Positions 41,959 through 62,802 of a stretch of DNA of 64,000 nt are shown here, in pieces. This DNA comes from an uncultured Lachnospiraceae bacterium (GTDB taxonomy: Bacteria > Bacillota > Clostridia > Lachnospirales > Lachnospiraceae): assembly GCA_947627245.1 (NCBI GenBank), contig CANQVH010000014.1, positions 1 through 64,000 on the forward strand, given 5' to 3'. A program made the translations under genes and the position numbers. Within the stretch, counting starts at the first letter, position 1, and the number at the start of each line of letters is the position of its first letter. The notes under the pieces are model-generated. The model was not told the DNA's origin and made no database searches. It saw only the letters and a program-made list of their open reading frames with translations.

Positions 41959-44900
41959 ATGAAGAAAACAAGTCGTATAAGCAGATTGCTGGCTATGCTG
42001 TTAGCGCTTGCTATGATCGTCAACTCGCAGGGTATGACTGCGATGGCAGCGGTAATCGGCGGCGTGACCGGCGGCACGAAGCAGACAGAGGCTCCGCAGA
42101 CGGAGACCGAGAAGGAGTCCTTGAAAGAGGAAGAGACCGAGGTTGAGTCTGAGAGCGAATCGGAGGGCTTGACACCGGCCGAGAAAGAGGCGATGTCAGA
42201 AGCGGCGGCCGAGACAGAGCTTGAGGCCGAGACGGAAGTCCAGACCGAAGCACCGATCGAGACGGAAGCCCTGACGGAAGCACCGGCTGAGACCGAAGCA
42301 CCGGCAGAAACGGAAGTCCTGACGGAAGCTGAGACGGAGCTTGAATCCGAGGCGATCGTTGAAGAAGAGAGCGAGACGGAGACCGAAAGCGAAAGCGAGA
42401 CGGAGCTGCCGGAATTTGCAGAGCCGCAGACATATACATATGAAGACGGAAAAGTAACGATTGAAGTTACTGTACCGGAAGGCGTGAAGCTTCCCTATGG
42501 GGCAGAGATGAGGGTTGAGCCGGTACCGGAGGATTCGAAAGAATATGCGGAAGCGGTAGAGGCTGTGGAAACCGCCAATCCGGATGTTGTATTTAACGAG
42601 CATGTTTTCTATGATATTTATTTCGTGACGAAGGAAGGCGTAGAGGTTGAGCCTGTCGGCGGAGAAGTATCTGTTCAGATGAGATTCAATGATCCTCTTA
42701 AGACAGAAGTTGAAGATGTATCCGGTGATCCGGTTGCGGTTGTGAGCCATATTCAGGACAACGGCGAACTGGAAGATGTGACGGATGAGGTCAATCTGAA
42801 CAGGAAGGACGAGGTCAAGGCTGTAGAGTTCTCGACTGATAGTTTTACGATTTATGGGGCAGGCGCCGGTGTACAGAATAACTATGAGACGACAGATACT
42901 ATCCCGAGCTATTCCCTGAAGTATTTGCTGGAGGGTTATAACGCGGTTGCTATTAAGGATACTGACGGCAATGGCGGCGATATTGTGATGAACCAGCATA
43001 CCATGGGTGGTATTCTGGCGCAGGGTAATCTTAAAGGTACAAGTGGCGCTGGGTATGCGGATTCTCCACTAGTGAATCCATCTTATATTGCTGGGCTGGT
43101 CGAAACCGCTGATTTGACATGGAAGGAAAACGGGCAGGAGAGGCACGGTAGGGGACTTGTCGGCGGAAAATTGAATGGACGCCACACATACTATTGGAAG
43201 CCCTTGTATGTAGGAAGCATTAATAATACTGTTACAGATCCTTGTGATATTCCTGCCGGTGAAAACGGTGAAAACGGTGGAAAATATTTAAATGGCTCTA
43301 CGAACGTATACAATGAGATTGGCGTAGGGGGAGACGGAAAGAGCGGAGAGAGTGCGCCAATCTATAGAACAGATAAATATGTTGATTGGAGTACTTTAAG
43401 AAATGCTGTTGTATCTGGTATGGACTATTTAGCCGGTGATACAGAGGATAAAGAGATACCAGAGAAGGCACCAAATGGAAACCTGTATGGACAAAATGGA
43501 GCCCCATTTCCAATAGAGCTGGGTTCCAAGGTGTCATTGACACTGGGAGATAAATGCCATATTGATAATAATGGCTTTCATATTGAATTAATCGGAGACG
43601 GTTCGATTCATGATACGAAAACAATTATCAATATCAAGGATTCAGGGGAAGTTCATGTTCCGATAATCAAGTCTGTTAATGGGGTAACGCTTAATACTAC
43701 AGAGGGCGATGCAACAGGTACGTCAATCGTATTCACATTTCCGAATGCGACAAAAGTGTTGATGTCTGAGGCCCCAATGTTTGGTCATGTGATTGCTCCT
43801 AAGGCGGATATTATAACCGGAGGCGGCAATTATAGCGGTTGCTTGATTGGTAAGAGTGTCACACTTAATGGCGAAGGGCATATGTGGCCATATACTGGTG
43901 AGACTTTGATTCCGGATCAGGAAGGATTCCATGCATCAAAGCAGGTGGATGGAAAAGCTCCGAAGCTAGAGGAGAATAAGAAATTTACTTTCCATTTATA
44001 CGAATTAAAGAATGGTATATGGGATCCTCTTGCTACGGCGGAAAACGATGGTTCGAAAATTTATCTGGGTGATCAGACATACGCTGAAAATTCACAGGGT
44101 GATCACTGGTATTTGATCCGCGAAGATTGGACCCCAATTAATGGATATGAGATTTCCAAGGTTCTTTATGTAGTAAAAGTACATGTAGAAAAAAAGAGCG
44201 AAACTATTAATGGTACGACCACGACGGAATGGTTTGTCACGGAGAAGAAGTATTACAAGACAAGTGCTGATTCTCCGGAAGCCCTTATTAACGAAGATCA
44301 TTCTATTAAGGCAGAGCTTTTAGGTGAGTCTATTCCGGAAGATGGAGTTGTTTTCAACAACACTACCGAAGAGGAGAAGGGCAGCCTCAGGATTAAGAAA
44401 AACGTAACGGTCAACGGAGAGCCAACGACCGGTACGCTTATGGATGATACGTATACATTTACAATTACTAAGAATGGAGATCGGCGCTTTAACGCAAAGC
44501 GAGAAATCAAAATTGTAAATGGAAAATCTACCGTGGAGTATGTTGAACTTGATAATCTGGATCCGGGTTGGTATACCGTGACAGAGGAATATCGAAGCGG
44601 CATTGATGTAAAGCCTAATAGAATCCAGAGTGTGGAAGTGAAGGCGAACAATACAGCCGAAGTCCCGACGGTGGAATTTACGAACAACAAGACAGTCAGA
44701 GGAGAGTTTTCTCTTTCTGGCAAAAAGACTGTTGATAACGAAGATCTTACCGATGATGAAAAGAATCATAAGTTTATATTTACGTTGAAAAGACCTGTCT
44801 GGGATATTCAAGAGAAAAAATATGTTTGGGGAGACGAGAAGTCGACGACAAACGAGGACGAGACCTTCACCTTTGAAAATCTTGAATATGATTATCTTGA

Positions 44901-47900
44901 AGGGACGGATTATTGGTATCTGATCGAAGAAAAAGAAGGTACTGATGATTATGTTTATTCTAAAGCAAAATATCTTGTGCATGTAAATGTTACTTATAGA
45001 TTGCTTAGCGATAAGATAACAACTACCTATTATAAAGTTCCGGAGGGTAAAGAAAACAGCATTATTGAGACTAAGAGTGGCTCAACACTATTGGGAGACT
45101 ATCACTACTATGATATCGATAATACTGGACTTGAACAGAAAACGGAAGCGGAATTCGATAATGAGCGTCTTGGCGAGTTGTCTGTCACCAAGGCTGTGTC
45201 CGGCACGGCGCCGGAGTCAGACGCTTCTTATGAAGTGACGGTTAAACCGGCCGAGGGTCAGACCGGCATCGACATGAGCGGCGTGAAGGTGAAGAAGGGC
45301 GACCGGGATATTACGAGTGAGGTGACGGTTGCAGAGAATTCCGTGAAGTTCTCCTTCAAGGCCGGAGAGACGGTTACTCTGAGCAAGCTGCCGAAGGGCA
45401 AGTATGTGGTTGAAGAAACGTCGAGCGGAAAATTTATCAAGGAGTACACGGTTGGCGATTCGACAGATAAGCAGAACGACCCGGTGACTGTCGAGATAAA
45501 GAAAGGTGCGACATCGGCATCTGTCACTGTGACGAATACCTATCCGACGGATGCAAAGATGAGCCTGAAGGCGAATAAGACGCTGACGAACGGAACGCTT
45601 GGTGATGATTACAGCTTCACATTGAAGTTGACCGGCGATTCGACGGGTCTTGTCGTGAAGGATGCCGAGGGTAGGGATCTGACAAATAATCTGAAGGACG
45701 CGGGCATTGTGCGCGGCAATAATGCAAGCGGTGAGATTCTGTTTGACGGATTTACGTTCAGTAAGGAAGGAACGTATACGTTCACGCTGTCTGAGAACAT
45801 TCCGGAATCAGAGGATGACGGTATTGAGTATGATGCTGCGGAATATACGATAACAGTCGAGGTTGAGCTGGATAAGTCTACAACGCCATATCAGTATAAG
45901 GTGGCAGATGTGACCGCAACGAAGAAAGCAGATAAGAGCGACGCGGAGAGCGCGAAGACTGCGGAGACTGATATAAAAGTCGAACTTGACAAGGACGGCG
46001 TTTACAAGATTAATTCCGGAATTACCTTCGCGAACCGCGTGAAGAAGGGCAAACTGTCTGTCACAAAGGAAGTACTTGGTAATACGGCGGATGATGAAGC
46101 AATATACACTGTTCATGTGACGGGCGAGCTCACAAAAGAGCAGTGGGATGAGGTTCTTGAAGACAATGATGGAAAGAACCTTGGGTTGTTGTATTCAAAA
46201 GAAAATTCTGATGAAGTGATCGGTTTGCAGTTCTCTATCAGAAAAGGTGAGACTGTAATGATCGATAAACTTCCGATCGGGAATTACCATGTAGAAGAGC
46301 TTATTGAGGGCGAGGTTGCTTACGAGGCGTCTTATGCGGTAGGCGCGGATGAAACGAAAAAGTCTGATGGTATTGATGTAGGAGTGCCAGATGAAGAGGA
46401 AGAGCCTGCTGGTTATACGGTCAAGATTACGAACACCTATCCGAACGAGGTGAGCGTGGCCTTTGGCGGTACGAAGCATGTGGAAGTAAAGGGCACAGAC
46501 GTTGACGAGAATACAGTATATCCGGACGCGACCTTTACGTTCAAGCTTTACAATGCGGTCGAGACAGAGGACGGCGGATACACAGTAAGCGGCGATGCAA
46601 TCCAGTCTGTAGATGTAACGATGCCTCTGGAGAGCGGTGAGGACGGAAGCTTTGTATTTGATGAGGCTTCGCTTGGGGAAGCTGTAAAGGGTGCTCTTAC
46701 CTATAAGAAAGCAGACACGTACTATTACATCGTCAGGGAGACGGTGAAGGAGACGGAGAAAGGCTTCACCTATGACGGTACGACATATGTCATCAAGGTT
46801 GAGGTGACGAAGTCTACGGATGGCAAGAATCTGGAGGCGGCAGCGTCTATCGTTTTCCCGGCTGGTAAAGAGCTTAAAAGGGCGGAGGATGGTATATTCT
46901 ACGGTCTTGACTTTACGAACACCTATACGTACGGGGATCTTGTAGTCGAGAAGGCTGTCTTGGCGTCTGAGGGTGTTGCGGATCCGAATAAAGAATATAC
47001 GATCTATGTCACCAATACGGAGGGCAAGGATCTCAGCGGCGCGATGGTAGCCGTTACAGGGGATGACGGTGTGTTTGGCGAGGCACAGGCCGTGACTGCG
47101 GATCAGCTTACGTCGGACAATACGGTTATTGTTCTGAAGCTGAAGGGTTCGCAGAAGGCGAAGATCACGCAGCTTCCGCTCGGGTATTATCATGTGGAAG
47201 AGATCATTCCGACGAATGAGGAAGGTGACTACAGCGCCACGTATGAAGGCGGAATTGAGGTCGCGGACAAGAAAGGCGTGAATGTTGAGCTTGAACAGGG
47301 CGAAGATAAGACGACGAGCGACAGAGTGACCGTGAAGAACACATACCCGAATCAGGGTGAGCTTCGTGTGCGCAAGAAGGTGACCGGCACGTGGCTTCCG
47401 GATGCTGATACGACGGAATATACGATTGAGATCTCCCGTGAAGACGAAGCGGCTATGACCGGCGCAGAGGTTTCTAAGGTTGCGGCCGGCGTAGAGACCA
47501 AGGCAGACAACGCTCTTGCGGCGGATAGCTCGAAGATTACGGTTGAGTTGAAAGCGGGCGAGGAGATTGTTGTCAGGAATCTCGCTCCGGGCGGTTACGT
47601 TGTGAAAGAGACGACGCAGGACGAGGCGTTCACGACACAGGTGACTGTGACAACCACGCCGAACATTGGGGAGAATACGCTGAAGACTGAACCGGGTGCA
47701 GAGGTAGAGTTCTACTTCGGCTACAAGGATACCGTCAGCGTCGAGATCCAGAACGACTATAAGAACAAGGGCGCGCTGGAGATTAAGAAGACGGTTGACG
47801 GCACTACGGCTCCGAGTGACGATACGTGGTATGAGATCACGGTGGAAGGCCCGGCAGGCGCGTTTACGGCAGAGAACGTAGGCAAGGCAAGCGAGAAATA

Positions 47901-50900
47901 TATGCCCGGTGTGCCGAGCGATGATGGAAGCAAGGTTACCTTCAAGCTGCGCAAGGATGGCAGTGTGAAGTTTGAGAATCTGCCGGCAGGCGACTATACG
48001 GTAACAGAGGCAGGAAGCGGCTTCACGAAGAAGCTCACGGTGGATTCGGCAACGGAAGGCTCGGAGTCTGCAACGGTGAATCTGAGCGGCGAGAAGACCG
48101 AGGGCACGGTAACGGTCAATAACCATTACCCGAACAAGACTTCTATGAAGCTGAAGGGCACCAAGGCAGTAGTCGGCAAGAAGCTGGAGGATCAGAAGTA
48201 TAGCTTCTATATTAATCTTGAATCCACTGTACCGGAAGGGAACAAAGACGGTGCAACGCTTGAACATGAAGAAAAGATTTACAATAGCGATACGGAAATC
48301 GACTTTGGTTCAATCACCTTCACGAAGAATGGGGAGTACACGTTTAAGATAGGTGAGAATGATCCTGATGATACGGATGTGAACAAGGACGACAGCATCT
48401 ACAAGGTAACTGTGAACGTGGATAATGTCAACGGCGATTACCAGATCACCAAGGTTGAGATCACGAACGACAAGAGTAACGTGAGCAAGACCTACGATAA
48501 GAATGCAGAGGGCGGCGAGTGGCCTGCGGATGGCGAGCCGTTTGAGCTTCCGGAATATGTGAAGGACGGCGCGACAGCTTCCTTCATCAACGATGTGAAG
48601 ACTGGCACGCTCCATGTGAACAAGACGGTTATCGAGGGCGATGTGGCCGTAGATCCGAACGCTACTTATACAGTCAATGTGACGGCTGACGTTGACTGGA
48701 GCCATGTGACTGTAGATGGTGCAGTATCGACCGATATTACGGAAACCAAGGAAGGCGAAGAAGATGTAGTCGTTGGCAAGTCCTTCGAGATCAAGGGTGG
48801 TGCTACGGTTACGCTGAATAATCTTCCGGTGGGAACCTATACGGTAACGGAGGAGTCCGGCACAGAATATGTGGCGAGCTATGTAGTGAGCGAGGACGGC
48901 AAGACGACTGAAGACGAAAGCAATGAGAAGGTCGTTCTTGGATATCAGGACGAGAAGACCGTTGCAATCACGAACACCTACCCGGAGAATGTGTCTATGA
49001 GCCTGAAGGGTACGAAGCAGGTTGAGGATGGTTTGCTCGGGACGTACAGCTTCAAGCTGATTAAGGTGGATGGGCCGGACGGTGTTGCTATTGATGAGGC
49101 GGATGCAGACGGCAGTCTGACGGTGCAGAATGCGGGTGAAACATTCACCTTCAATGGTATCACCTTCAGCGCGGCAGGTACTTATACGTTTGAGGTATCT
49201 GAGGTAGAGGATAAGGATAACAGCGGTATTGAGTACGATAAGACGAAATACCGCGTGACCGTGAAGGTTGCGAAGACCGCCGATGGCACGACCTACGAAA
49301 TCACCGAGGCGAAGATTGAGACGATCAAGACAGTCAAGGCCGACGAGGAAGGCAATGAGACCACGCAAGTGACCGCTACCGAGGTTTACGGCACGAGTGA
49401 AGGAGAAAAAGCTCTTCCGGAGAGCAACGCGTTTACGCTTCCGGATAAGACCTTTACGAACCGCGAGAAGCGCGGCACGCTCCAAGTAGAGAAGATCGTT
49501 GTTGGCGATCCGGCTACGATTGCTGCGCATACATCGGATGAGTATACCGTCAGGGTGACGAATGATAAGATCAACTGGGGCGATGATCAGATCGAGATTA
49601 AGTCTTCTGTGGGAGATGAGAAGGTCACGACGGATCTGATCGGAGCTAACGCTGCGGGTAAAGAGAATGCTGTTATCGGCAAGGAGTTCACAATCGCGAA
49701 GGGCGAGATCGTGACATTCAGCGGGCTGCCGATTGGCGAGTATACGGTGGAGGAAATTCTTCCGACCGGCGAGACGGCTGCTCTGTATACGGCGACGGTT
49801 GAAGGCGTAAAAGTAGAAGACGCAGAGCCGACGGAAGATGTCGTAGGCGGAACCGTGACGGTAGAGGATGGCGGTACGGCTACCGTGACCGTGACAAACA
49901 CCTACCCGACCAAGGCAAGCGTAGATTTCGACGGCATGAAGACGCTTGAAGTCATAGGCGGCACGACGGCGCCGCAGGCGACGTTTACATTCGAGCTGTA
50001 CGAGACGGATGATGAGTATAGTCTGGATGGCGCTAAGAAGATAGACAGCGCGTTTATTGACGATCTGGCAACAGCAGGCAGCAAAGAATTCAACTTTAAA
50101 TCGATTGATTACACGGATGTAGGGACTCATTATTATGTAATCAAGGAAACTGTGACGGTGACGGACGGTGACGGCGGCTTCACGAACGATACCAGACTGC
50201 ACAAGATTACGGTAGTTGTCACAAAGGATAAAGCGACTAACAAGCTGGTTGCTACGAAGACGGATGTAGACAAAACTGGTTTCAATTTCACGAATACCTA
50301 CACCTACGGCAGTCTGTCTGTGCAGAAGGTAGTGTCCGGCAGAGCTCCGGAAGGTGAGGAATATAGCGTCACTGTGAGCAGTACGAAGAACTTTGCGAAA
50401 GCGAAAGTGCAGATCAATAGTGACAAGCCGACGTCGTTTGAAGAGAATGACGTAAAAGAGAAGGATGGCATGTATTCCTATACCTTCACGCTGGGTGCAA
50501 ACGATGTGGCTAAGTTCACGGAGCTTCCGGTGGGCAGCTATACCGTGACTGAGGAAACGCCGGAGGGTGTAAACTATGCGGCGACCTACAATGTGGCAGG
50601 CAGTGACGAAGAAAGCGGAACAGATAGCACTGGTGCGACTGTGAAACTCACTCCGACCGTAAAGGAAGGCAATGTGACAATCACAAACACCTACACAAAC
50701 AAGGGCGAGCTCTCGATCGTCAAGACGACAGACGGCTCATGGGCTCCGGACTCTGAGACGTATACGATCACTGTGACCGGAGGACCGGAGGGCGCGGATC
50801 TGTCTTCTGACGAAATTGAAGTAACCTTTGATGGCATATCGGCTACAAGTGAACAAGTACAGAAGGACAAGAATAGCATTGTTCTTCAGATGCCGAAGGA

Positions 50901-53900: not shown

Positions 53901-56900
53901 CGACGATCACAGCTACGTGTTTACGGTGGTTGCGAAGTATAACTACGAGACCGGAGAGCTGGAGCTGACGAGGAATGAGTCGAAGGATGATAAGACGTTT
54001 ACGAACACATGGTCCGCGGAAGCGTCAGTACCGCTTATCGGTTATAAGATGCTGAAGGACATGAAGCTTAAGGAGCACAAGTACAGCTTCAACGTATATC
54101 ATGTGGAGACTAGGGTAGACGGCAAGACAGTATGGACAGCATCGGCGGATGAGAAGCCGGTAATCGGACCGGTCTGGAACGAGGCAAACGGAGCCATCAC
54201 GTTCGGCAGTCTGGAGTACAATCTTTCTCATATCGAACTCGAAGACGGAAGCTATCCGGCGGAGACATTCTTTTACTATAAGGTGGTTGAGGCCGAGCCT
54301 GAAAAGGACGATAACCTTCAGGGCAGTGTCAGCTACGACAAGAGCGAGAGGAACGTGACCGTGAGGGTGACGTATAACGCAGTGACCGGCAAGATGGAAG
54401 CGAAGCTGGTAAGCGTCACGGATCTGCTGGTATTCGTTAATGATTACGATACGGAAGAGACGATCGGGCTGAACGCGAAGAAGGAAATGTTAGGCCGCGA
54501 TCTGACGCAAGAGGATCTGGATACGTACACATTCACGCTGGCAGCGGCTGATTCAGCATATGCCCATACGGTTCAGACGAAGGATCCGCAGAAGCTTAAG
54601 ATGGTTGGCGAGGATGCGGTAGTTGATTTCGGCGAAGCGGCAATCAAGATCGAGCTGGACGACATGACGGGCATGCGAGCGACAGATGTCGAGGGCGAGT
54701 ACAAGAAGGAGTTCCGGTACACGCTGACAGAGAGCGGAAACAGACCGCATGTGACGAACGCGGCCGCACAGACGCTGACGCTGGTAGCAATCTACAATGA
54801 GAACAGTGGTCGTCTGACGCTGGCTTGGCAGAACGCACCGGCGGATGTGAAGTTTACCAACACTTACGCGGCGACAGGTCTGGGCGAGCTGGAAGGCAAG
54901 AAGCTCTTGGAAGGTCGTGAGATAAAAGACGGCGAGTTTACTTTCCAAGTGAAGAACGCTAATGGTGAGGTAGTCGGCGAGGCGACAAATACCGGCAGCA
55001 GCTTCAAGATTACCGGTATCGGCAAGGCGCTGGATGCAGATGGCAAGGTACTGCCGTTCACGCAGGATGATGTAGGTAAGGAGATAACGGGCTTCACACT
55101 GACCGAGGACAGGGGCAGCGATCCTAAGATCGTGAAGTACGATAGTAAGAGCTATCCGTTAACTATAACCGTAAGCATTGGCGATGACAGCGAGCTGAAG
55201 GTGGAAGTGGACGGCGGACCGGATGTGAAGTTTGAGAACGAGTACGATACATCTTACGAGGTTACGCTGCAGGCCAAGAAAGAGATGCTGGGCCGCGCGC
55301 TGAACACGGATGACGTAGCCGGGTACACGTTTACGCTGACAGAGGATGTTCCGGAAGATACAGAAGGTTCGGAGTTCAAGAGTACAGTGCTGGCGGATAA
55401 TAGCACAGATGGGCTTGAGCTGACCGAGGACGGTGGCGCGATAATCGACTTCAATAACCAGCCGGTTGTCAGGATCACGCTGGCCGATATGGATGACGCA
55501 GATAAGAGCGGCAGCGATGGCATATGGAGGAAGGATTTCCACTATACGCTGACCGAGACCGGCACAAGACCGGGTGTGACGAATGATCCGGATGCAAAGA
55601 AGCTGACACTCCATGCTACTTATAATTACAACACAGGCGTCTTGTCGGCAACTTGGGAGGAAGGTTTGGACGATCTGACCTTCAGGAACACTTACGAGGC
55701 GACAGGCAGCTTCAGCTTTGAAGGCAAGAAGGTGCTGGAAGGCAGAAATCTGGAGGATGATAACAGGAAGTTCCGGTTCTCGGTTGTGGAGACAAAGGAC
55801 GGTACGCCGACGGGTAAATCATGGATCGTAAGGAACAACGGCGGCACAATCGACTTTGGACCATTTGCTTATACGCTGAACAAGGATCAGGACGACACCG
55901 GCATCTATGTATACCGGATCAGAGAGATCGTCGGCGAGACGGATAAGGGTTACACTTACGATGATTCCGTCTATGAAGTGACCGCAGAGGTGGAAGACAA
56001 CAAAGAAGGCAAGCTGATCGCAACGAAGAAGTCTGTGACGAAGAACGGCGAAGCAGTTGCGGATCAGACGGTTACCTTCACGAACAAGTACGAGGCGACG
56101 GGCAGCATCACGTTCGACGGCGTGAAGACGCTGGAGGGCAAGGATCTGAACGACGAGAGATTCCAGTTCTCATATGTCGAGATGAAGCAGACGAGCGGCG
56201 GCAACACGCCGACGGGCGCTTCGGGAATCGTAAGGAACGACGACAAGGGTAAGGTTAGCTTCGGACCGTTCACCTACACGAAGAATAAGGATGCGGACGG
56301 TACCGGCACTTATGTATACCGGATCAGAGAGATCGTCGGAGACCTTGACGGAGATTACACCTACGACGATACCTACTATGATGTGACGGTAGTGGTTACG
56401 GACAACGGTGACGGAACGCTGAAGACACAGAAGACGCGCGTGACGAAGAACGGCACGGAGGATGTGACGGCGGTTGCATTTGAGAACGAGTACGACGTGC
56501 AGGCGCAGACCGGCCTTGACGCGACGAAGGTGTTGGTTGGACGTAAGCTGAAGAAGGGAGAGTTTGCCTTCACGCTGAAGGAGGAAAAGGGCAGCGAGGG
56601 TACGCTGGATATATCCAAGGCGATGGCAGTGAACGACGAAGACGGCAATATCGTATTCGCGGACGACACGATTACGATCGAGCTGGCAGACATGACGGGC
56701 ATGCAGCCGACCGGTGCTGAGAACGAGTATGCGAAGGACTTCACGTATACGTTGACTGAGGCTCCGACGAGCAACAAGAGTGTGACGAGTGACTTGAGAC
56801 GTGAGCGTATGCTGACGCTGAGAGCGACGTACAACAAGAAGACCGGCAGCCTGACGCTTGCATGGCTGAATGAACTTCCGGACCTGACGTTCACGAACAC

Positions 56901-59900
56901 CTACGATACGCAGGAGAAGACGGGCGTAGAGCTCACGAAGGAGCTGACAGGACTTGACCTGGCGATGCATCCGTTCACATTCGACCTGGAGAAGAAGACT
57001 GGTGAGAATGAGTGGACACGGATTATTTCCAAGATCAACGATGCCAAGGGTAAGGTAAGCTTTGCAAACGCGATCACGGTCAGACTGGCTGATATGCTGA
57101 ACGAGGATGGTGTGACTTACGCGGAGGATAAGACGTTCACCTATCGCGTGAAGGAGTCCATACCGGAGAAACCTAACGCGGATATGGATTACGATGATCA
57201 CAGCTATGAGTTCACGGTGGACGCGCATTATGATTTTGCAAGCGGTAAGTTGACGCTGACGAAGCATGAGCCGGAGAACGGCAAGACATTTACGAACACA
57301 TGGTTCGCTGAGGCTGCTGTACCGCTCACAGGATCCAAGACACTGGAAGACAAGAAGCTTGAGGCAGGCAAGTACAGCTTTGCGGTATATCATGCGGAAG
57401 ATGTGGAAGTGGTCAATGGCAAGGAAACCGTAAAGGCTGGCGCGAAGCCGGTGCTTGGACCGGTTGCGAATGAAGAGAACGGAAGCATTACGTTCGGTAG
57501 TCTGACGTACTACCTTGAAGATATCGTGAATGCGGACGGCAGCTATCCGGCTGAGAAGACATTCAATTACAAGGTAGTTGAGCTTGCCGGAAACGAGCAG
57601 GGCGTCAGCTACGACGAGAGCGTGAAGAACGTGATCGTGAAAGTAACGTATAACAGAGTGACGGGTAAGATGAACGCGACGCTGGAAAGCGGAACGGATC
57701 GTCTGATATTCGTAAATGATTACGATACGGATGAGACGATCGGGCTGCATGCGAGCAAGGTGATTGACGGCCGCGAGCTGACGGCGGAGGATGAGGGCAA
57801 GTTCACATTTACGCTGGCAGCGGTTGATCCGGCATATGCGAAGACTGTCACGAAAGCGACGGCGACGAACGGAGCGAACGGAGTGATCGACTTCGGCAAT
57901 GCTGCGGTTACGATTGAACTGGATGATATGACAGGCATGCAGCCGACCGGCACTGAGGGTGAGTACACGAAGCAATTTGCGTACACACTGACTGAGTCGC
58001 CGAAGGCAGAGAATGCCGAGGACGACGGCGTGACGAACAACACTACGCCGAAGAACCTGACGCTGATCGCGACGTACAATGAGATTTCCGGTCTGCTGAC
58101 GCTCGCATGGGCAGAGGGCTCGGATAACCAGACATTCATTAACACGTACGAGGCGACCGGTAAGCTCTCACTCGAAGCGCAGAAGCTGATGGCAGACGGG
58201 ACGACGCCTGTGCCGGAGATCTTCTGGTTCACAGCGGAAGCGGTGAGCGCGGTGAAGGCGGATGGTACGGAGGTCGAACTTGAAGGGCCGACAAAGACCA
58301 AGGTGCATAACGATGCAGATGGCAAGGTTTCCTTCCCGAATTTCGTGGAGTACAGCCTTGCGGACGTCGGAACGACATTCACCTACACGGTGACTGAGGA
58401 TATTCCGGCAGACAGAGGCATCTATCTGTACGATGAAACGGTCTACACGGTGACGGTTACGCTTGAAGACAACGGCGACGGCACGCTGAGTGTGCGTAAG
58501 ACCATAACGAAGGACGATGGAACGGAGATCACGGAGCCGATGCAATTCGTGAACGACGTGACCGATGTGAAGCTTGATAAGGTAAATGAAGCGGGCGACA
58601 AAGTAGTAGGCGCGAAGCTTCAGATCAAAGATGCGGAAGGCAAGGTAGTGGACGAGTGGACGACGACTGAGGAAATCCATGAGCTCACCGGCAAGCTGGA
58701 AGCTGGCAAGACCTATACGTTAGAAGAGGTTGAGGCTCCGGTCGGCTATGGCACGGCTAAGGCAGTCGAGTTCACGGTGACTTTGGACGGCAAGATCACG
58801 GTTGACGGCAAGGAAGTTACGCTGGTGACCATGGTCGATAAGCACATTTACTTCAACGTGAATAAGGTAGACCTTACGAACGATGAGGAGCTGGACAACG
58901 CGACGCTCACGGTATATGAGGCAGACGAGAACGGAGAGATCGTCGGAGAGGCGATCGAGAGCTGGACGTCGAAGAAGGGCGAGACGCACGACTTCGGTAG
59001 CAGCCTGAAGGCAGGCGGAAGCTACGTGCTCCGTGAGGAAGCGGCTCCGGATGGATACGCGTTCACGAGCGACATTCCGTTCACGGTAGACGAGGATGGT
59101 ACAGTCACGGCAGAGATGCGGACGACGAAGAACGCGGACGACGAGACAGTATACCTTGTGGATGATAAGCCGCTGCACTTCAACGTGAACAAGGTAGACC
59201 TTACGAACGATGAGGAGCTGGACAACGCGACGCTCACGGTATATGAGGTAGACGAGAACGGAGAGATCGTCGGAGAGGCGATCGAGAGCTGGACGTCGAA
59301 GAAGGGCGAGACGCACGACTTCGGCAGCAGCCTGAAGGCAGGCGGAAGCTACGTGCTCCGTGAGGAAGCGGCTCCGGATGGATACGCGTTCACGAGCGAC
59401 ATTCCGTTCACGGTAGACGAGGATGGTACAGTCACGGCAGAGATGCGGACGACGAAGAACGCGGACGACGAGACAGTATACCTTGTGGATGATAAGCCGC
59501 TGCACTTCAACGTGAACAAGACGGAAGTCGGCGACAACAGCAAGGAAGTCGCGGGCGCGGAGATCACGGTATACGAGCTGACGACGGACGAGGAAGGCAA
59601 TACGGTAGAGACGAAGGTCGACAGTTGGATCTCGAAGGAAGGCGAGACGCACGACTTCGGCGGTAAGCTGAAGGCAGGCAGCAAGTACGTGATGCGTGAG
59701 ACGGTCGCTCCGGACGGATATGCATACACGAACGACATTGAGTTCACGATCGACAAGGACGGCAAGGTGACGACCGACGCCCAGACGGTAACGGATGAGG
59801 ACGGCAACCCGGTATATCTGGTAGAGGATGCACCGCTGCACTTCAATGTGAACAAGACGGAAGTCGGCGACAACAGCAAGGAAGTCGCGGGCGCGGAGAT

Positions 59901-61770
59901 CACGGTATACGAGCTGACGACGGACGAGGAAGGCAACACGGTTGAGACGAAGGTCGAAAGCTGGACGTCGAAGGAAGGCGAGACGCACGACTTCGGCAGC
60001 AAGCTGAAGGCAGGCGGAAGCTACGTGATGCGTGAGACAGTCGCTCCGGACGGATATGCATACACGAACGACATCGAGTTCACAATCGACAAGGACGGCA
60101 AGGTGACGACTGACGCTCAGACGGTAACGGATGAGGACGGCAACCCGGTATATCTGGTAGAGGATGCACCGCTGCACTTCCATGTTGACAAGGTTGAGCT
60201 TGGCAACGGCGAGGAGCTGGACGGCGCAGAGCTTACAGTATATGAAGTAACGACAGACGAGAACGGCAACCGCGTAGAGACGAAGGTTGAGAGCTGGACG
60301 TCGAAGAAGGGCGAGAACCACGACTTTGGCGCGGGTCTGAAGGCAGGCGGAAGCTACGTGCTTCGCGAGGAGCTGGCTCCGACCGGATACGCTTACACGA
60401 GCGATATCGAGTTTACGGTCGATAAGGACGGCAAGGTTACGGCGAATATGCCGACGACGACGGATGCCGAGGGCAACACGGTATATCTGGTAGAGGATGC
60501 GCCGATCATCGGTTCCGTGACGCTGAAAAAGACGAGCGAGACGACAGGCGATGTGCTGGCAGGCGCGGCATTCCAGTTGTACTACAAGACGACTGAGACC
60601 GAGAGCGGCTGGGCGCTGTACAACAACGCGGCGTATGTGACCGGTATTGACGGCACGCTGACGATCAGCGGCCTGACGGCGAATGACTACTACTTCGTTG
60701 AGACGGAGGCTCCGGAAGGATTTGTAATCGCGACGGATGAGAACGGTGCGCCGAAGCAGTATCCGTTCACAATCGCTCCGGACGAGGCTGACAGGACGAA
60801 GGCAGAAATATCCGTGACGCTGGATGTGACGAACGCTCCGGAGGAAGAGGATACGAGCCTTGTGGTGACGAAGCAGTTGGTATACCAGAACGAGCTTTGG
60901 AACGCAGTGGACGCGACCTTCTATGTGGCGCTGTTTGATGACGCAGCATTGACGAACCGCGTATCTGAGGTACAGGCGATCGAGTTCAAGGATATGAATA
61001 CATCCTCGACGACGTTTGAGAAGCTCGAAGCGGGCAAGACCTACTACGTGGCAGAGACGACGGCGGACGGCACGGTGGTGAATGACATCGGCGGCGCACT
61101 GGCAACCGGCGAGATCTACAAGGTAGATTTCTACAACGACAATGTGGTGACGGTTGAAAAGGGCAACGGTACGCAGGTGATCTACTTCCGCAACGTATTC
61201 ACGGAGCTGCCGACAGAGTTCTACCGTGAGGGCAGACTGACGATCACGAAGCAGTTGCTCGGCGCGGACGGAGTACTCAAGAAGAGCAACAAGACGTTCT
61301 ACGCAGGTATCTTCGACGACGCGGAGTTCACGAAGCTGTCCGAGAACGTATCTAAGAACATTGTGAAACTGGCGATGGGGGGAAGGTCTTCGGTATCCGA
61401 CAGCGTGAATGTTGCGGTGGCGAATGAGGGCCAGACGACCGTATATGTGACCGAGGTTGACGAGAACGGCAAGCCGGTAGCCGGAGCGGCATCGTTCCAG
61501 TACGATGTATCCGTGGACGGCACGACAGTCACGATGGATATCGACCATCTTGAGGGCGCGGCCGTGATCACGAACAAAGAGCGTGAGAAGGAGACCGAGA
61601 CGGAAGGCTACCACGAGGAAGAGACAGAGGGTACGGTTCCGAAGTCGACGAAGGCCGTGAAGACGGGTGATGAGACGCCGATTGCGCTGTACATCGGATT
61701 GCTGCTGGCGGCGGCACTGCTGCTGATCGTGGCGTTCGTACTGAAGCGCAGAAAACGCAACCAAGGCTGA
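41959..61770 (+). CDS. giant cell-wall-anchored adhesin of about 44 isopeptide-type domains (6,603 residues)
   Basis: The protein is about 700 kDa. Layout: signal peptide (1-30); Glu/Thr/Ser-rich segment (about 35-136); a beta domain (about 140-300); a domain like the choice-of-anchor A adhesin head (about 305-655, with FGHVIAPKAD and CLIGKSVTLNGEG). A long stalk follows. Stalk domains are FctA/Spy0128-like (GxKxLxGRxL...FTFxL) and DUF5979-like (GxLxVxKxVxG...LPxGxYTVTE) in the first half, mostly FctA-like in 3700-5500, and SpaA/CnaB-like near 5520-6270. Most domains show an early Lys, a Glu in YxVTE and an Asn in FxNxY, the triad that forms Lys-Asn isopeptide cross-links. The C-terminus has VKTGD (6567-6571), a hydrophobic span and KRRKRNQG, a sortase signal with an atypical first residue. 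AAAGGGG precedes ATG 41959. No sortase is in the window. Confidence 0.93.
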   Translation: MKKTSRISRLLAMLLALAMIVNSQGMTAMAAVIGGVTGGTKQTEAPQTETEKESLKEEETEVESESESEGLTPAEKEAMSEAAAETELEAETEVQTEAPIETEALTEAPAETEAPAETEVLTEAETELESEAIVEEESETETESESETELPEFAEPQTYTYEDGKVTIEVTVPEGVKLPYGAEMRVEPVPEDSKEYAEAVEAVETANPDVVFNEHVFYDIYFVTKEGVEVEPVGGEVSVQMRFNDPLKTEVEDVSGDPVAVVSHIQDNGELEDVTDEVNLNRKDEVKAVEFSTDSFTIYGAGAGVQNNYETTDTIPSYSLKYLLEGYNAVAIKDTDGNGGDIVMNQHTMGGILAQGNLKGTSGAGYADSPLVNPSYIAGLVETADLTWKENGQERHGRGLVGGKLNGRHTYYWKPLYVGSINNTVTDPCDIPAGENGENGGKYLNGSTNVYNEIGVGGDGKSGESAPIYRTDKYVDWSTLRNAVVSGMDYLAGDTEDKEIPEKAPNGNLYGQNGAPFPIELGSKVSLTLGDKCHIDNNGFHIELIGDGSIHDTKTIINIKDSGEVHVPIIKSVNGVTLNTTEGDATGTSIVFTFPNATKVLMSEAPMFGHVIAPKADIITGGGNYSGCLIGKSVTLNGEGHMWPYTGETLIPDQEGFHASKQVDGKAPKLEENKKFTFHLYELKNGIWDPLATAENDGSKIYLGDQTYAENSQGDHWYLIREDWTPINGYEISKVLYVVKVHVEKKSETINGTTTTEWFVTEKKYYKTSADSPEALINEDHSIKAELLGESIPEDGVVFNNTTEEEKGSLRIKKNVTVNGEPTTGTLMDDTYTFTITKNGDRRFNAKREIKIVNGKSTVEYVELDNLDPGWYTVTEEYRSGIDVKPNRIQSVEVKANNTAEVPTVEFTNNKTVRGEFSLSGKKTVDNEDLTDDEKNHKFIFTLKRPVWDIQEKKYVWGDEKSTTNEDETFTFENLEYDYLEGTDYWYLIEEKEGTDDYVYSKAKYLVHVNVTYRLLSDKITTTYYKVPEGKENSIIETKSGSTLLGDYHYYDIDNTGLEQKTEAEFDNERLGELSVTKAVSGTAPESDASYEVTVKPAEGQTGIDMSGVKVKKGDRDITSEVTVAENSVKFSFKAGETVTLSKLPKGKYVVEETSSGKFIKEYTVGDSTDKQNDPVTVEIKKGATSASVTVTNTYPTDAKMSLKANKTLTNGTLGDDYSFTLKLTGDSTGLVVKDAEGRDLTNNLKDAGIVRGNNASGEILFDGFTFSKEGTYTFTLSENIPESEDDGIEYDAAEYTITVEVELDKSTTPYQYKVADVTATKKADKSDAESAKTAETDIKVELDKDGVYKINSGITFANRVKKGKLSVTKEVLGNTADDEAIYTVHVTGELTKEQWDEVLEDNDGKNLGLLYSKENSDEVIGLQFSIRKGETVMIDKLPIGNYHVEELIEGEVAYEASYAVGADETKKSDGIDVGVPDEEEEPAGYTVKITNTYPNEVSVAFGGTKHVEVKGTDVDENTVYPDATFTFKLYNAVETEDGGYTVSGDAIQSVDVTMPLESGEDGSFVFDEASLGEAVKGALTYKKADTYYYIVRETVKETEKGFTYDGTTYVIKVEVTKSTDGKNLEAAASIVFPAGKELKRAEDGIFYGLDFTNTYTYGDLVVEKAVLASEGVADPNKEYTIYVTNTEGKDLSGAMVAVTGDDGVFGEAQAVTADQLTSDNTVIVLKLKGSQKAKITQLPLGYYHVEEIIPTNEEGDYSATYEGGIEVADKKGVNVELEQGEDKTTSDRVTVKNTYPNQGELRVRKKVTGTWLPDADTTEYTIEISREDEAAMTGAEVSKVAAGVETKADNALAADSSKITVELKAGEEIVVRNLAPGGYVVKETTQDEAFTTQVTVTTTPNIGENTLKTEPGAEVEFYFGYKDTVSVEIQNDYKNKGALEIKKTVDGTTAPSDDTWYEITVEGPAGAFTAENVGKASEKYMPGVPSDDGSKVTFKLRKDGSVKFENLPAGDYTVTEAGSGFTKKLTVDSATEGSESATVNLSGEKTEGTVTVNNHYPNKTSMKLKGTKAVVGKKLEDQKYSFYINLESTVPEGNKDGATLEHEEKIYNSDTEIDFGSITFTKNGEYTFKIGENDPDDTDVNKDDSIYKVTVNVDNVNGDYQITKVEITNDKSNVSKTYDKNAEGGEWPADGEPFELPEYVKDGATASFINDVKTGTLHVNKTVIEGDVAVDPNATYTVNVTADVDWSHVTVDGAVSTDITETKEGEEDVVVGKSFEIKGGATVTLNNLPVGTYTVTEESGTEYVASYVVSEDGKTTEDESNEKVVLGYQDEKTVAITNTYPENVSMSLKGTKQVEDGLLGTYSFKLIKVDGPDGVAIDEADADGSLTVQNAGETFTFNGITFSAAGTYTFEVSEVEDKDNSGIEYDKTKYRVTVKVAKTADGTTYEITEAKIETIKTVKADEEGNETTQVTATEVYGTSEGEKALPESNAFTLPDKTFTNREKRGTLQVEKIVVGDPATIAAHTSDEYTVRVTNDKINWGDDQIEIKSSVGDEKVTTDLIGANAAGKENAVIGKEFTIAKGEIVTFSGLPIGEYTVEEILPTGETAALYTATVEGVKVEDAEPTEDVVGGTVTVEDGGTATVTVTNTYPTKASVDFDGMKTLEVIGGTTAPQATFTFELYETDDEYSLDGAKKIDSAFIDDLATAGSKEFNFKSIDYTDVGTHYYVIKETVTVTDGDGGFTNDTRLHKITVVVTKDKATNKLVATKTDVDKTGFNFTNTYTYGSLSVQKVVSGRAPEGEEYSVTVSSTKNFAKAKVQINSDKPTSFEENDVKEKDGMYSYTFTLGANDVAKFTELPVGSYTVTEETPEGVNYAATYNVAGSDEESGTDSTGATVKLTPTVKEGNVTITNTYTNKGELSIVKTTDGSWAPDSETYTITVTGGPEGADLSSDEIEVTFDGISATSEQVQKDKNSIVLQMPKDVTVKISGLMPGDYTVTEKLPENANYAATYSVKVNGVVAMDAKGGVKDRTDAPKVEIENNKSTSVEVKNTYPEIGELKIKKVVTGETKDLYTTDVYEITVAGTAGEDMSGAEVKGAIADSVSVSDDGKTITFKMNADGTVTITGLKKGNYTVTETSEGNYVASYTYTSDGSNVDSVEGIPLGTVASQDVTVTNTYPNELHLTIEGDKKLVGRDLGDGEFTFKLRDLSAPEKATLTDAVEEGALTTGNNVETGMFKFEGITFRKEGTYTFEISEVIGTDEDVTYDRVVYTATVVVVKDDDTNQYKVESVTVTAADEAGNVTVSEPKFEGEGNNWAVTLPKHTGADTATFVNEIKKGSLIIKKTSIDGYAEDIFTFHVTLNGTPYDGKAKLNDGTELSIENGVLNLKGGQTATIDGILYGTAYVVTENKDGAYTPEQQEFSGTISATTPTISAEYVNTYETNDVNFQPEVTKTVNGRPAPKVDGETYTFKLTVVKKDAEGNIVEGGWTETKELTLEGVDAEGILRAFAQFENHTFKKADRGYTYVYTITEDIPEKAKENGNVLDGVTYDDTVYTYEVTIVDDAKGHLTAEVVKKTTRNGVEVKDGNEQIVTGDAMGTVTATFVNEYEAAGLGEVSGTKTLTGRQLDDRMFTFQVKNAKGDVVGEAQNVGGSFTIKNIGKEKAENGTVLPFTLEDVGKDLSGYKLVELIPTDAKDNTKDGVRYTTKDYKLNVSVSDDGDGSLTVSVTVVKGPAFFQNTYNTEETIGLDATKKLIGRKLGNGEFTFVLAAADDVNEGTVQNPTVQNDADGKIDFGEDAIKITLSDMDDVYPTVDEKGESISTKYFKYTLTEQPTDNVEGSESTVTNDPVPMRTLTLKATYNWTTGVLTLAWEDDADEQVFVNNYDIRKKTGVELSKKLTGLDLATHPFTFDLEKQNDDGGWTRIVSKINDAEGNISFADAIEIALSDLRIDPEAEDSAANYYKERTFTYRVKESIPEKPNADMDYDDHSYVFTVVAKYNYETGELELTRNESKDDKTFTNTWSAEASVPLIGYKMLKDMKLKEHKYSFNVYHVETRVDGKTVWTASADEKPVIGPVWNEANGAITFGSLEYNLSHIELEDGSYPAETFFYYKVVEAEPEKDDNLQGSVSYDKSERNVTVRVTYNAVTGKMEAKLVSVTDLLVFVNDYDTEETIGLNAKKEMLGRDLTQEDLDTYTFTLAAADSAYAHTVQTKDPQKLKMVGEDAVVDFGEAAIKIELDDMTGMRATDVEGEYKKEFRYTLTESGNRPHVTNAAAQTLTLVAIYNENSGRLTLAWQNAPADVKFTNTYAATGLGELEGKKLLEGREIKDGEFTFQVKNANGEVVGEATNTGSSFKITGIGKALDADGKVLPFTQDDVGKEITGFTLTEDRGSDPKIVKYDSKSYPLTITVSIGDDSELKVEVDGGPDVKFENEYDTSYEVTLQAKKEMLGRALNTDDVAGYTFTLTEDVPEDTEGSEFKSTVLADNSTDGLELTEDGGAIIDFNNQPVVRITLADMDDADKSGSDGIWRKDFHYTLTETGTRPGVTNDPDAKKLTLHATYNYNTGVLSATWEEGLDDLTFRNTYEATGSFSFEGKKVLEGRNLEDDNRKFRFSVVETKDGTPTGKSWIVRNNGGTIDFGPFAYTLNKDQDDTGIYVYRIREIVGETDKGYTYDDSVYEVTAEVEDNKEGKLIATKKSVTKNGEAVADQTVTFTNKYEATGSITFDGVKTLEGKDLNDERFQFSYVEMKQTSGGNTPTGASGIVRNDDKGKVSFGPFTYTKNKDADGTGTYVYRIREIVGDLDGDYTYDDTYYDVTVVVTDNGDGTLKTQKTRVTKNGTEDVTAVAFENEYDVQAQTGLDATKVLVGRKLKKGEFAFTLKEEKGSEGTLDISKAMAVNDEDGNIVFADDTITIELADMTGMQPTGAENEYAKDFTYTLTEAPTSNKSVTSDLRRERMLTLRATYNKKTGSLTLAWLNELPDLTFTNTYDTQEKTGVELTKELTGLDLAMHPFTFDLEKKTGENEWTRIISKINDAKGKVSFANAITVRLADMLNEDGVTYAEDKTFTYRVKESIPEKPNADMDYDDHSYEFTVDAHYDFASGKLTLTKHEPENGKTFTNTWFAEAAVPLTGSKTLEDKKLEAGKYSFAVYHAEDVEVVNGKETVKAGAKPVLGPVANEENGSITFGSLTYYLEDIVNADGSYPAEKTFNYKVVELAGNEQGVSYDESVKNVIVKVTYNRVTGKMNATLESGTDRLIFVNDYDTDETIGLHASKVIDGRELTAEDEGKFTFTLAAVDPAYAKTVTKATATNGANGVIDFGNAAVTIELDDMTGMQPTGTEGEYTKQFAYTLTESPKAENAEDDGVTNNTTPKNLTLIATYNEISGLLTLAWAEGSDNQTFINTYEATGKLSLEAQKLMADGTTPVPEIFWFTAEAVSAVKADGTEVELEGPTKTKVHNDADGKVSFPNFVEYSLADVGTTFTYTVTEDIPADRGIYLYDETVYTVTVTLEDNGDGTLSVRKTITKDDGTEITEPMQFVNDVTDVKLDKVNEAGDKVVGAKLQIKDAEGKVVDEWTTTEEIHELTGKLEAGKTYTLEEVEAPVGYGTAKAVEFTVTLDGKITVDGKEVTLVTMVDKHIYFNVNKVDLTNDEELDNATLTVYEADENGEIVGEAIESWTSKKGETHDFGSSLKAGGSYVLREEAAPDGYAFTSDIPFTVDEDGTVTAEMRTTKNADDETVYLVDDKPLHFNVNKVDLTNDEELDNATLTVYEVDENGEIVGEAIESWTSKKGETHDFGSSLKAGGSYVLREEAAPDGYAFTSDIPFTVDEDGTVTAEMRTTKNADDETVYLVDDKPLHFNVNKTEVGDNSKEVAGAEITVYELTTDEEGNTVETKVDSWISKEGETHDFGGKLKAGSKYVMRETVAPDGYAYTNDIEFTIDKDGKVTTDAQTVTDEDGNPVYLVEDAPLHFNVNKTEVGDNSKEVAGAEITVYELTTDEEGNTVETKVESWTSKEGETHDFGSKLKAGGSYVMRETVAPDGYAYTNDIEFTIDKDGKVTTDAQTVTDEDGNPVYLVEDAPLHFHVDKVELGNGEELDGAELTVYEVTTDENGNRVETKVESWTSKKGENHDFGAGLKAGGSYVLREELAPTGYAYTSDIEFTVDKDGKVTANMPTTTDAEGNTVYLVEDAPIIGSVTLKKTSETTGDVLAGAAFQLYYKTTETESGWALYNNAAYVTGIDGTLTISGLTANDYYFVETEAPEGFVIATDENGAPKQYPFTIAPDEADRTKAEISVTLDVTNAPEEEDTSLVVTKQLVYQNELWNAVDATFYVALFDDAALTNRVSEVQAIEFKDMNTSSTTFEKLEAGKTYYVAETTADGTVVNDIGGALATGEIYKVDFYNDNVVTVEKGNGTQVIYFRNVFTELPTEFYREGRLTITKQLLGADGVLKKSNKTFYAGIFDDAEFTKLSENVSKNIVKLAMGGRSSVSDSVNVAVANEGQTTVYVTEVDENGKPVAGAASFQYDVSVDGTTVTMDIDHLEGAAVITNKEREKETETEGYHEEETEGTVPKSTKAVKTGDETPIALYIGLLLAAALLLIVAFVLKRRKRNQG
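53164..54864 (+). repeat. four-domain block A of a higher-order duplication in the adhesin
   Basis: Residues 3736-4302 hold four domains in the order TIGLDATKK, KTGVELSKK, EASVPLIGYK and TIGLNAKKE. The same order of types recurs in block B (56491-58146). Within the second domain a stretch near 53851-53917 is almost identical in bases to 57141-57207. Confidence 0.8.
56491..58146 (+). repeat. four-domain block B of the higher-order duplication
   Basis: Residues 4845-5396 repeat the block A order as QTGLDATKV, KTGVELTKE, EAAVPLTGSK and TIGLHASKV. The blocks start 3,327 bases apart, with four other domains between them (54865-56490). The last two of those, near 55690 and 56090, are themselves close relatives in tandem. 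Confidence 0.8.
58852..60504 (+). repeat. five tandem SpaA-type domain repeats, 327-336 bases each
   Basis: Units start at 58852, 59179, 59506, 59842 and 60178 (residues 5632-6182). Units 1 and 2 are nearly identical in bases, units 3 and 4 likewise, and unit 5 is more divergent. Each encodes an FxV(N/D)K...ESWTSK(K/E)GE(T/N)HDFG...PDGYA(F/Y)T domain. The pairwise identity points to recent unequal crossing-over. Confidence 0.92.
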
Positions 61771-61965: not shown

Positions 61966-62802
61966 ATGAAAGCAGACCATAATCATCAGAAGAAGATCGC
62001 CGTAATCAATGATTTTTCCGGTTTCGGGCGCTGCTCGATCGCGGTGGCGCTCCCGATCATTTCCGCGATGCGGATCCAGTGCTGTCCGGTTCCGACGTCG
62101 ATCTTTTCCAATCATACCGGTTTTGACAGCTTTTTTTTCGAGGACTACACCGACCGGATGCAGGCATATATTGATGAATGGAAGAAGCTGGGGCTGGAAT
62201 TTTGCGGCATCAGCAGCGGTTTCCTCGGTTCGAAGGAGCAGATCCGGATCGTGATTCGATTTTTCCGGGAATTTCGCAGGGAGGATACGATCATTGTCGT
62301 GGATCCGGTCATGGGAGACTATGGGAAGCCGTACCCGACGTATACGCCGCAGATGTGCGAGGAGATGAAGAAGCTCGTGACGTATGCCGACATCCTGACG
62401 CCGAATCTGACGGAGGCGTGCATCCTGACGGACACACCGTATCATCCGGATCACTGGAGGATGAAGGAGATCGTCGGTCTGGCGGAGAAGCTCGGCGCGC
62501 TCGGGCCGTCGAAGGTGGTGATCACGGGGATCCCGCAGGGGGGATTTATCGCGAATTACTGCCATGAGCAGGGGAAACCGGGCAAGATCCGGCGCACGCA
62601 CAAGGTGGGCACACAGCGCTCGGGGACCGGGGATATCTTCGCGGCGATCGTCGCGGCGGACGCGGTCAACGGCGTGCCGTTTCAGGATTCCGTGCGCAAG
62701 GCGTCGCTCTTCGTCAAGCGCTGTATTGAGCGGTCGATTGAGATGGATCTGCCGCTGACGGACGGGGTGTGTTTTGAAGAGGTGCTTCACAGACTGTCGT
62801 GA
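61966..62802 (+). CDS. pyridoxamine/pyridoxal kinase-like protein (PfkB/ribokinase fold)
   Basis: The 278-residue protein resembles PdxK/PdxY kinases that phosphorylate B6 vitamers for PLP synthesis. Seen are IAVINDFSGFGRCSIAVALP near residue 11, SIFSNHTGF, IIVVDPVMGDYGKPY, LTPNLTEACILT, VVITGIPQGG, and the anion-hole/catalytic-base region THKVGTQRSGTGDIFAAIVAAD, in which GTGD holds the catalytic Asp. In this clostridial variant the family is usually annotated pyridoxamine kinase; other hydroxymethyl substrates remain possible. TGAGGTGAG precedes ATG 61966. PLP-dependent enzymes occur elsewhere in the window (11041, 25073). Confidence 0.88.
   Translation: MKADHNHQKKIAVINDFSGFGRCSIAVALPIISAMRIQCCPVPTSIFSNHTGFDSFFFEDYTDRMQAYIDEWKKLGLEFCGISSGFLGSKEQIRIVIRFFREFRREDTIIVVDPVMGDYGKPYPTYTPQMCEEMKKLVTYADILTPNLTEACILTDTPYHPDHWRMKEIVGLAEKLGALGPSKVVITGIPQGGFIANYCHEQGKPGKIRRTHKVGTQRSGTGDIFAAIVAADAVNGVPFQDSVRKASLFVKRCIERSIEMDLPLTDGVCFEEVLHRLS

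Follow-up and report, generated by a model that had tools for sequence, protein, structure and literature searches.

A giant gene at a conserved, length-variable locus of a gut Lachnospiraceae species encodes a probable single-chain fibrillar adhesin of 44 isopeptide-type domains

A 19.8-kb gene encodes a probable fibrillar adhesin

The DNA analyzed here, referred to as the window, is a stretch of 64,000 nucleotides from an uncultured Lachnospiraceae bacterium (assembly GCA_947627245.1, contig CANQVH010000014.1; G000:C14:1-64000 in our genome set). The genome, designated G000, comprises 3.84 Mb in 151 contigs, with a completeness of 96.97% and a contamination of 7.01%. A single open reading frame (ORF) on the forward strand (41959..61770) encodes a giant surface protein of 6,603 residues, which very probably serves a gut Lachnospiraceae species as a fibrillar adhesin made of a single chain. 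The gene is genuine, and its product is a very large representative of a known kind. What appears to be new, judging from sequence comparison, is its fixed locus in four species, its different lengths there and an apparent swapping of large pieces. The ORF starts with ATG and contains no internal stop codon, and the window holds no N; a preliminary description of this DNA had likewise reported one 19.8-kb gene for 6,603 residues. The calculated mass of the chain is 720 kDa and its isoelectric point 4.4.

The protein was parsed into 44 isopeptide-type domains, namely 23 FctA (F), 12 DUF7601/DUF5979 (D), 7 SpaA (S) and 2 CnaB-like (C) domains, in agreement with the approximately 44 counted in the preliminary description. 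Curated Pfam models called 39 of the 44 in the genome search (FctA 21/23, DUF7601 11/12, SpaA 7/7). The models missed F1, F26 and D2, which were assigned by alignment, as were C43 and C44. Two additional weak SpaA matches fall within DUF7601 domains. The order proposed earlier (head, mixed stalk, FctA region, SpaA section and sortase tail) was borne out, and FctA, DUF7601/DUF5979, SpaA and choice-of-anchor A were all matched in the domain search. Over residues 1-3,200, DUF7601 scored 151.1 bits in 10 stretches and DUF5979 112.1 bits in 6 stretches. Much of the stretch that had been called DUF5979 is therefore better named DUF7601.

All parts of the protein are given here by their forward-strand coordinates. 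A signal peptide (residues 1-31, boundary set by eye; 41959..42051) is followed by an acidic, Thr/Glu-rich spacer (residues 32-157; 42052..42429) with tandem 30-bp and 18-bp repeats at 42228-42316, and by an N-terminal domain over which no Pfam model exceeds its cut-off (residues 158-300; 42430..42858). The adhesin-like head (42928..43881) matches pAdhesive_15 (residues 324-641, E 5.9e-18) and choice_anch_A. The stalk begins with 20 mixed domains (8 F and 12 D), followed by 15 F, 7 S and the 2 C domains. In terms of coordinates, F1-F21 (9 FctA, 12 DUF7601/5979) occupy 43912..52770, the 13 FctA domains F22-F34 52771..58149, and F35, the last FctA before the SpaA array, 58150..58557. The SpaA domains S36-S42, called by Pfam, lie at 58558..60846, and C43 and C44, over which no Pfam domain model exceeds its cut-off, at 60847..61596; S42 ends at residue 6296 and C43 begins at residue 6297. 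An acidic linker, a VKTGDE sorting motif, a hydrophobic helix and a basic tail complete the protein (61597..61767). Only three Cys residues are present (429, 533 and 628), every one within the head, and the stalk is Cys-free.

This layout suggests how the protein may function. It would be secreted by means of its signal peptide, and a sortase would act on VKTGD and link it to the cell wall. The 44 immunoglobulin-like domains would then make up a stalk tipped by a head with an ice-binding fold, which is probably adhesive. A buried Glu would assist every domain in forming its own bond, Lys-Asn in 38 domains or Lys-Asp in up to six SpaA domains, and pulling force would be carried by the cross-linked beta-sandwiches. 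With 4-5 nm per domain, the stalk would measure about 0.2 micrometre and could present the head beyond the wall without sortase polymerization.

Isopeptide bond residues are conserved throughout the stalk

The 23 FctA copies are strongly diverged. Across the 250 columns of their alignment the mean column identity is 25%; only five of the columns are invariant (residues K12, F26, E80, F130 and N132 in the numbering of domain F30), and three of the five form the Lys/Glu/Asn triad. Similarly, the triad accounts for three of the eight invariant columns among the 12 DUF7601/DUF5979 copies, such that Lys, Glu and Asn are kept in all 35 FctA and DUF domains by alignment. In C43 and C44 the three residues are invariant in the six tails compared (6/6). 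Together with S42, Lys, Glu and Asn are thus held by 38 of the 44 domains (35 FctA/DUF, S42, C43 and C44), and the earlier statement that most domains keep the triad is hence accurate.

The remaining six domains, S36-S41, hold Lys and Glu, which are invariant in all seven SpaA domains, and an Asp that either occupies the acceptor position or adjoins it. In six of the seven SpaA domains the last strand carries Asp instead of Asn, and the acceptor shares no single alignment column across the seven. The domains end in TMVDK (S36), LVDDKP (S37, S38), LVEDAP (S39-S41) and VTNAP (S42). The column aligned to the Asp of FbaB CnaB2 (2x5p), the structure to which the SpaA profile is nearest, holds Asp in S36-S38 and Glu in S39-S41; the column after it holds Asp in S37-S41, Asn in S42 and Lys in S36. 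Each of the seven SpaA domains therefore has an Asn or Asp within one residue of the acceptor position, the register of S36-S41 being uncertain by one. The bond of CnaB2 is formed between Lys and Asp. If bonds form as the residues predict, the expected mass loss would be 38 NH3 and up to 6 H2O, rather than 44 NH3.

For FctA, profile comparison and structure prediction agree with the assignment of the triad. The FctA profile search places the three triad residues on a Lys, Glu and Asn of the Streptococcus pyogenes pilin Spy0128 (3b2m). In the E117A mutant of Spy0128 (3gld) an Ala occupies the triad Glu column, and in the N168A mutant (3gle) the profile match ends before the triad Asn. The structure predicted for one FctA domain adopts the FctB/Spy0128 fold. 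As far as sequence and fold go, the preliminary description is thus supported.

The giant gene occupies the same locus in four species and differs in length

A giant gene was found between the same neighbors in four congeneric species (G000, G015:C15, G463:C8 and G464:C5). The conserved flanks are rho, DUF1385, prmC, prfA, a small ORF and rSAM upstream, and PfkB and BTAD downstream. The encoded proteins measure 6,603 (G000), 4,380 (G015), 6,144 (G463) and 4,941 residues (G464). Both protein ends are conserved among the four, and the middle is variable. Of the first 40 residues of the G000 protein, conserved in the orthologs, 38 are the same in G463 and in G464 and 32 in G015, and all four proteins terminate with VKTGDETPI and a helix.

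The G000 and G015 proteins are collinear over domains 1-21. After these, the G015 protein continues with one F, three S and two C domains, giving 27 domains compared to 44. The surplus of the G000 protein consists of 13 F domains (F22-F34) and four S domains; F35 shares 44% identity with the last FctA domain of the G015 ortholog. The G463 giant likewise carries a long F array. The four loci fit a gain of the block as well as a loss. With the block and four SpaA repeats absent from the G015 ortholog, length is an evolving trait. Relatives of the F22-F34 block were detected in 9 of 47 genomes of the genus, including its own, at E 1e-10; the best-matching relatives in G003, G463, G011 and G015 have 45-50% identity. 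A search of 397 genomes of the family at E 1e-15, in which few candidates per genome were scored, failed to detect the block in 395 of them. F22-F28 and F31-F34 were compared at 1e-5 with the 13 other isopeptide ORFs extracted from G000, giving no match except F33 at 28%; F29 and F30 match other isopeptide ORFs of G000 weakly (32-41%). The block is part of an old internal duplication, in which residues 3605-4436 resemble the protein stretch encoded at 56095-58494 with 52% identity. Self-matches of FctA domains in the stalk do not exceed 61%, and F1 and F3 have none; high self-similarity is confined to S37/S38 (97%) and S39/S40 (96%).

We considered whether the length could stem from misassembly, with reads of related giants having been joined so as to expand the FctA block or the SpaA array. 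The shorter G015 ortholog, without 13 FctA and four SpaA domains, is in line with this idea, as are the exact repeats of the SpaA array. Exact repeats of at least 40 bp occur in the gene only within this array (195, 89, 75, 63 and 58 bp), the 195-bp repeat lying between S37 and S38. Moreover, a 77-bp exact overlap links two giant-gene contigs in G015. However, the FctA block has no exact repeat of at least 40 bp and hence does not look like the product of joined reads; comparison with 13 fetched stretches of other G000 giants gave a single match of at least 30 bp, measuring 32 bp and lying in SpaA. The existence of block relatives at 45-50% identity in four genomes and of a 6,144-residue version at the same place in G463 also speaks against an artefact, which we regard as improbable. 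The concern raised earlier, that the gene could be mis-assembled or broken by a stop, does not hold for either end of the gene or for stalk domains 1-21, all of which G015 also carries at the same place; the SpaA copy number stays uncertain and is the least secure part.

The second G015 contig (G015:C120) measures 5,122 bp, is open at both ends and encodes 8 F and 6 S domains. One of its ends carries the 77-bp exact overlap with the giant on C15, and the other overlaps C75 at 99%. It was considered as an allele of the C15 giant; the 99% overlap with C75 makes a second giant gene likelier. Either two giants of this genome have shared sequence recently or a repeat has collapsed, and the short G015 form itself could have arisen in assembly, by a short-cut through the shared 77 bp.

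The heads of the four proteins bear on whether the giant is an adhesin at all or a stiff spacer or surface-masking polymer whose head has no specific ligand. Family models detected pAdhesive_15 and choice_anch_A in G000 and G464, and choice_anch_A alone in the 900 residues scanned of G463. The differing heads would suit a spacer, and so would the facts that no ligand of the head is known and that a gut bacterium would have no use for ice binding. On the other hand, all four proteins of the locus keep an adhesive-type head at their tip, as judged by models in G000, G463 and G464 and by 91% identity to the G000 head in G015. In addition, the ratio of nonsynonymous to synonymous divergence (dN/dS) of the head between G000 and G015 is 0.29, which indicates constraint, though it is not proof of binding. 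A mere spacer is thus unlikely, and we favor the adhesin.

Head and stalk segments may have been exchanged between species

To compare divergence within the gene with that of its surroundings, seven flanking genes were used, leaving out rho (aligned only partly) and AAA_21 (missing in G015). The amino-acid identity of the flanks to G000 is 0.897 (G015), 0.912 (G463) and 0.913 (G464), and the identity at fourfold-degenerate sites 0.683 (G015, n = 808), 0.708 (G463, n = 809) and 0.721 (G464, n = 813). By its flanks, G015 is thus no closer to G000 than G463 or G464. The last 421 residues of the giant agree with the flanks (71% identity to G000 in G015, 86% in G463 and 84% in G464).

Two tracts of the gene behave differently. 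Between G000 and G015, D4-D18 (45166..51483) share 85% protein identity and a fourfold-site identity of 0.88 (809/921), and the heads a fourfold-site identity of 0.85 (128/151). Fisher tests against the flanks (552/808) gave p values of 3e-23 for D4-D18 and 2e-5 for the head, which serve as a guide only since sites within a tract are non-independent. Domains 1-3 (0.60), domains 19-21 (0.64) and the tail (0.61) show no difference from the flanks at the 5% level. Synonymous divergence (dS) between G000 and G015 follows the same pattern, being 0.17-0.18 in the head and D4-D18, 0.88 in domains 1-3 and 0.60 in the tail. The 21-domain stalks of G000 and G464 are 50% identical. Since the head and D4-D18 are more alike at fourfold sites than the flanks, they point to an interspecies exchange of gene segments. 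In the simplest reading, the head and D4-D18 would have moved between the G000 and G015 lineages.

The G+C content at third codon positions (GC3) rises overall along the window gene from 0.48 (head) to 0.76 (C44), with dips to 0.34 in F3, and climbs from 0.47 to 0.88 along the G015 ortholog. In six flanking genes it ranges from 0.48 (AAA_21) to 0.81 (prfA). An exchange would be compatible with this pattern, the low-GC head being seated on a resident base of high GC. It is possible, if on balance doubtful, that the locus serves specifically for diversification. In this reading the signal peptide and the anchor would be fixed, and self-locking head and stalk segments, foldable in any order, would be traded among species and among giants of the same genome, the bond chemistry making a 44-domain chain tolerant of shuffling.

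Anchoring and sortases

The sorting signal exceeds the cut-offs of NCBIfam srtB_target and LPXTG_anchor and lies under that of Pfam Gram_pos_anchor. The sortase tail described earlier is thereby confirmed as a signal, its motif being VKTGD(E) in place of LPxTG. YPK is the pilin motif of sortase-polymerized pili. In the 6,603 residues no YPK was found; the G015 ortholog has one, at residue 2330, between two domains. None of the five PF04203 (sortase) matches of the genome lies on contig C14 (65.9 kb), and three of the five share contigs with giants (C1, C2 and C13). That the giant is a pilus shaft or tip subunit polymerized by a class C sortase as with Spy0128 is very improbable, for although FctA is the shaft domain of streptococcal pili and three sortases lie on giant-bearing contigs, the protein lacks YPK, its 65.9-kb contig is free of sortase matches and a 44-domain chain has no need of polymerization.

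The fibrillar adhesin would accordingly act as a single chain. The preliminary description had proposed such a single-chain alternative to a polymerized pilus, which fits the missing YPK and the sortase-free contig; as an idea, it was already in print (PMC10619420).

Relation to known adhesins

The closest precedent is the giant adhesin of Mobiluncus mulieris, for which the available text reports 7,651 residues and 51 cross-linked Ig-like domains, 18 with ester and 33 with isopeptide bonds (PMC10619420). It resembles the window giant in being a single giant chain with a sortase signal, dozens of Spy0128-like isopeptide domains and an N-terminal adhesive region. The M. curtisii homologue is described there as being without 21 isopeptide domains, a difference that resembles the one in the block between G000 and G015. 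In contrast, the Mobiluncus giant has ester-bond domains, a disulfide, a thioester domain and LPxTG (PMC10619420). The window giant has no match to the ester-bond motif HxDxxDxxQ or the thioester motif TQxx[aromatic]W in its 6,603 residues; its stalk is free of Cys, its 44 isopeptide-type domains include DUF7601 and SpaA, and its anchor motif is VKTGD. By our own count, its 44 isopeptide-type domains exceed the 33 of the Mobiluncus protein.

Fibrillar adhesin-like proteins, in the accessible parts of two surveys, share an adhesive domain, repeated stalk domains, a wall anchor and great length (PMC8286594, PMC9210967), the number of stalk domains ranging from 1 to 73 (PMC8286594). The window giant has a pAdhesive_15 head, an FctA/DUF7601/SpaA stalk and a surface-anchor signal. 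It stands at the large end of this class, and VKTGD falls outside the anchor motifs quoted in those parts. Periscope proteins, as far as the source was available, are similar in that relatives differ in stalk length, which determines how far an N-terminal head extends (PMC8201768). The number of stalk domains varies here too (44 vs 27). However, periscope proteins have highly similar repeats (PMC8201768), while such tandem repeats do not characterize the window giant, in which only two SpaA pairs (96-97%) are alike, most stalk domains have diverged widely and length shifts by whole blocks. Spy0128 and FbaB CnaB2 share the domain folds and bond residues with the window giant; they differ in having few domains per chain, and Spy0128 is polymerized. 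FbaB CnaB2 is the parent of SpyCatcher, and tandem SpyCatcher-like SpaA domains could be useful for protein-ligation tools if the bonds form.

The domain families found here are listed as isopeptide-bearing in the available text of a survey based on AFDB, which stops at 1,280 residues (PMC12617251); giants of such size would therefore escape it. In the parts at hand of the literature joining Lachnospiraceae with giant isopeptide or fibrillar adhesins, no such giants are described, only ester-bond domains and gut colonization. As far as these sources go, a gut-bacterial lineage is thus added to the few with described giant single-chain isopeptide-type adhesins. The fixed locus with its four length versions also offers a testable system for fibre growth and the trading of pieces.

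Neighboring genes and other giants of the genus

Upstream of the giant gene, the conserved flank of the window runs DUF1385-prmC-prfA-orf-AAA_21-rSAM, with prfA at 37412..38482 on the forward strand. The AAA_21 (AbiEii-like) gene lies between prfA and rSAM (39122-40315), likewise in G463 and G464, and was not found within the 38 kb of G015 searched. Downstream, a PfkB/phosphomethylpyrimidine-kinase type gene (61966..62802, forward strand) is followed by the BTAD-domain regulator. Ten neighboring genes scanned with Pfam revealed no sortase and no partner gene adjoining the giant, and the idea of an operon was consequently dropped. Simple scans gave no terminator-like site just downstream of the giant and, for the one promoter type covered, no forward-strand promoter-like site just upstream.

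Giants are common in the genus, and the window gene is not unusual there. FctA is present in 32 of 47 genomes at 1e-6. The longest open frame with such domains encodes 8,115 residues (G465:C6); the 7,187-residue part examined, open at its 5' end, contains 18 F domains by hidden Markov model, and the whole frame therefore at least 18. G000 itself has 13 ORFs of at least 600 residues with at least two such domains, several of them clipped by stretch or contig ends, and its other large open frames measure 5,204, 3,110, 2,855 and 2,836 residues. The 3,110-residue frame on G000:C1 has the tail GTIPTDS instead of a KTGD-type motif and shares its contig with a sortase at C1:101939; the two are possibly a dedicated sortase-substrate pair. 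Genes on G000:C97 and G000:C9 match the N-terminal domain and head of the window giant at 66% and 52% identity. Throughout the genus, many giants contain the N-terminal domain of about 140 residues (42430-42858), as do short frames of about 200-340 residues; many relatives match the query only over about residues 2-158, and eight matches were found in G006 alone.
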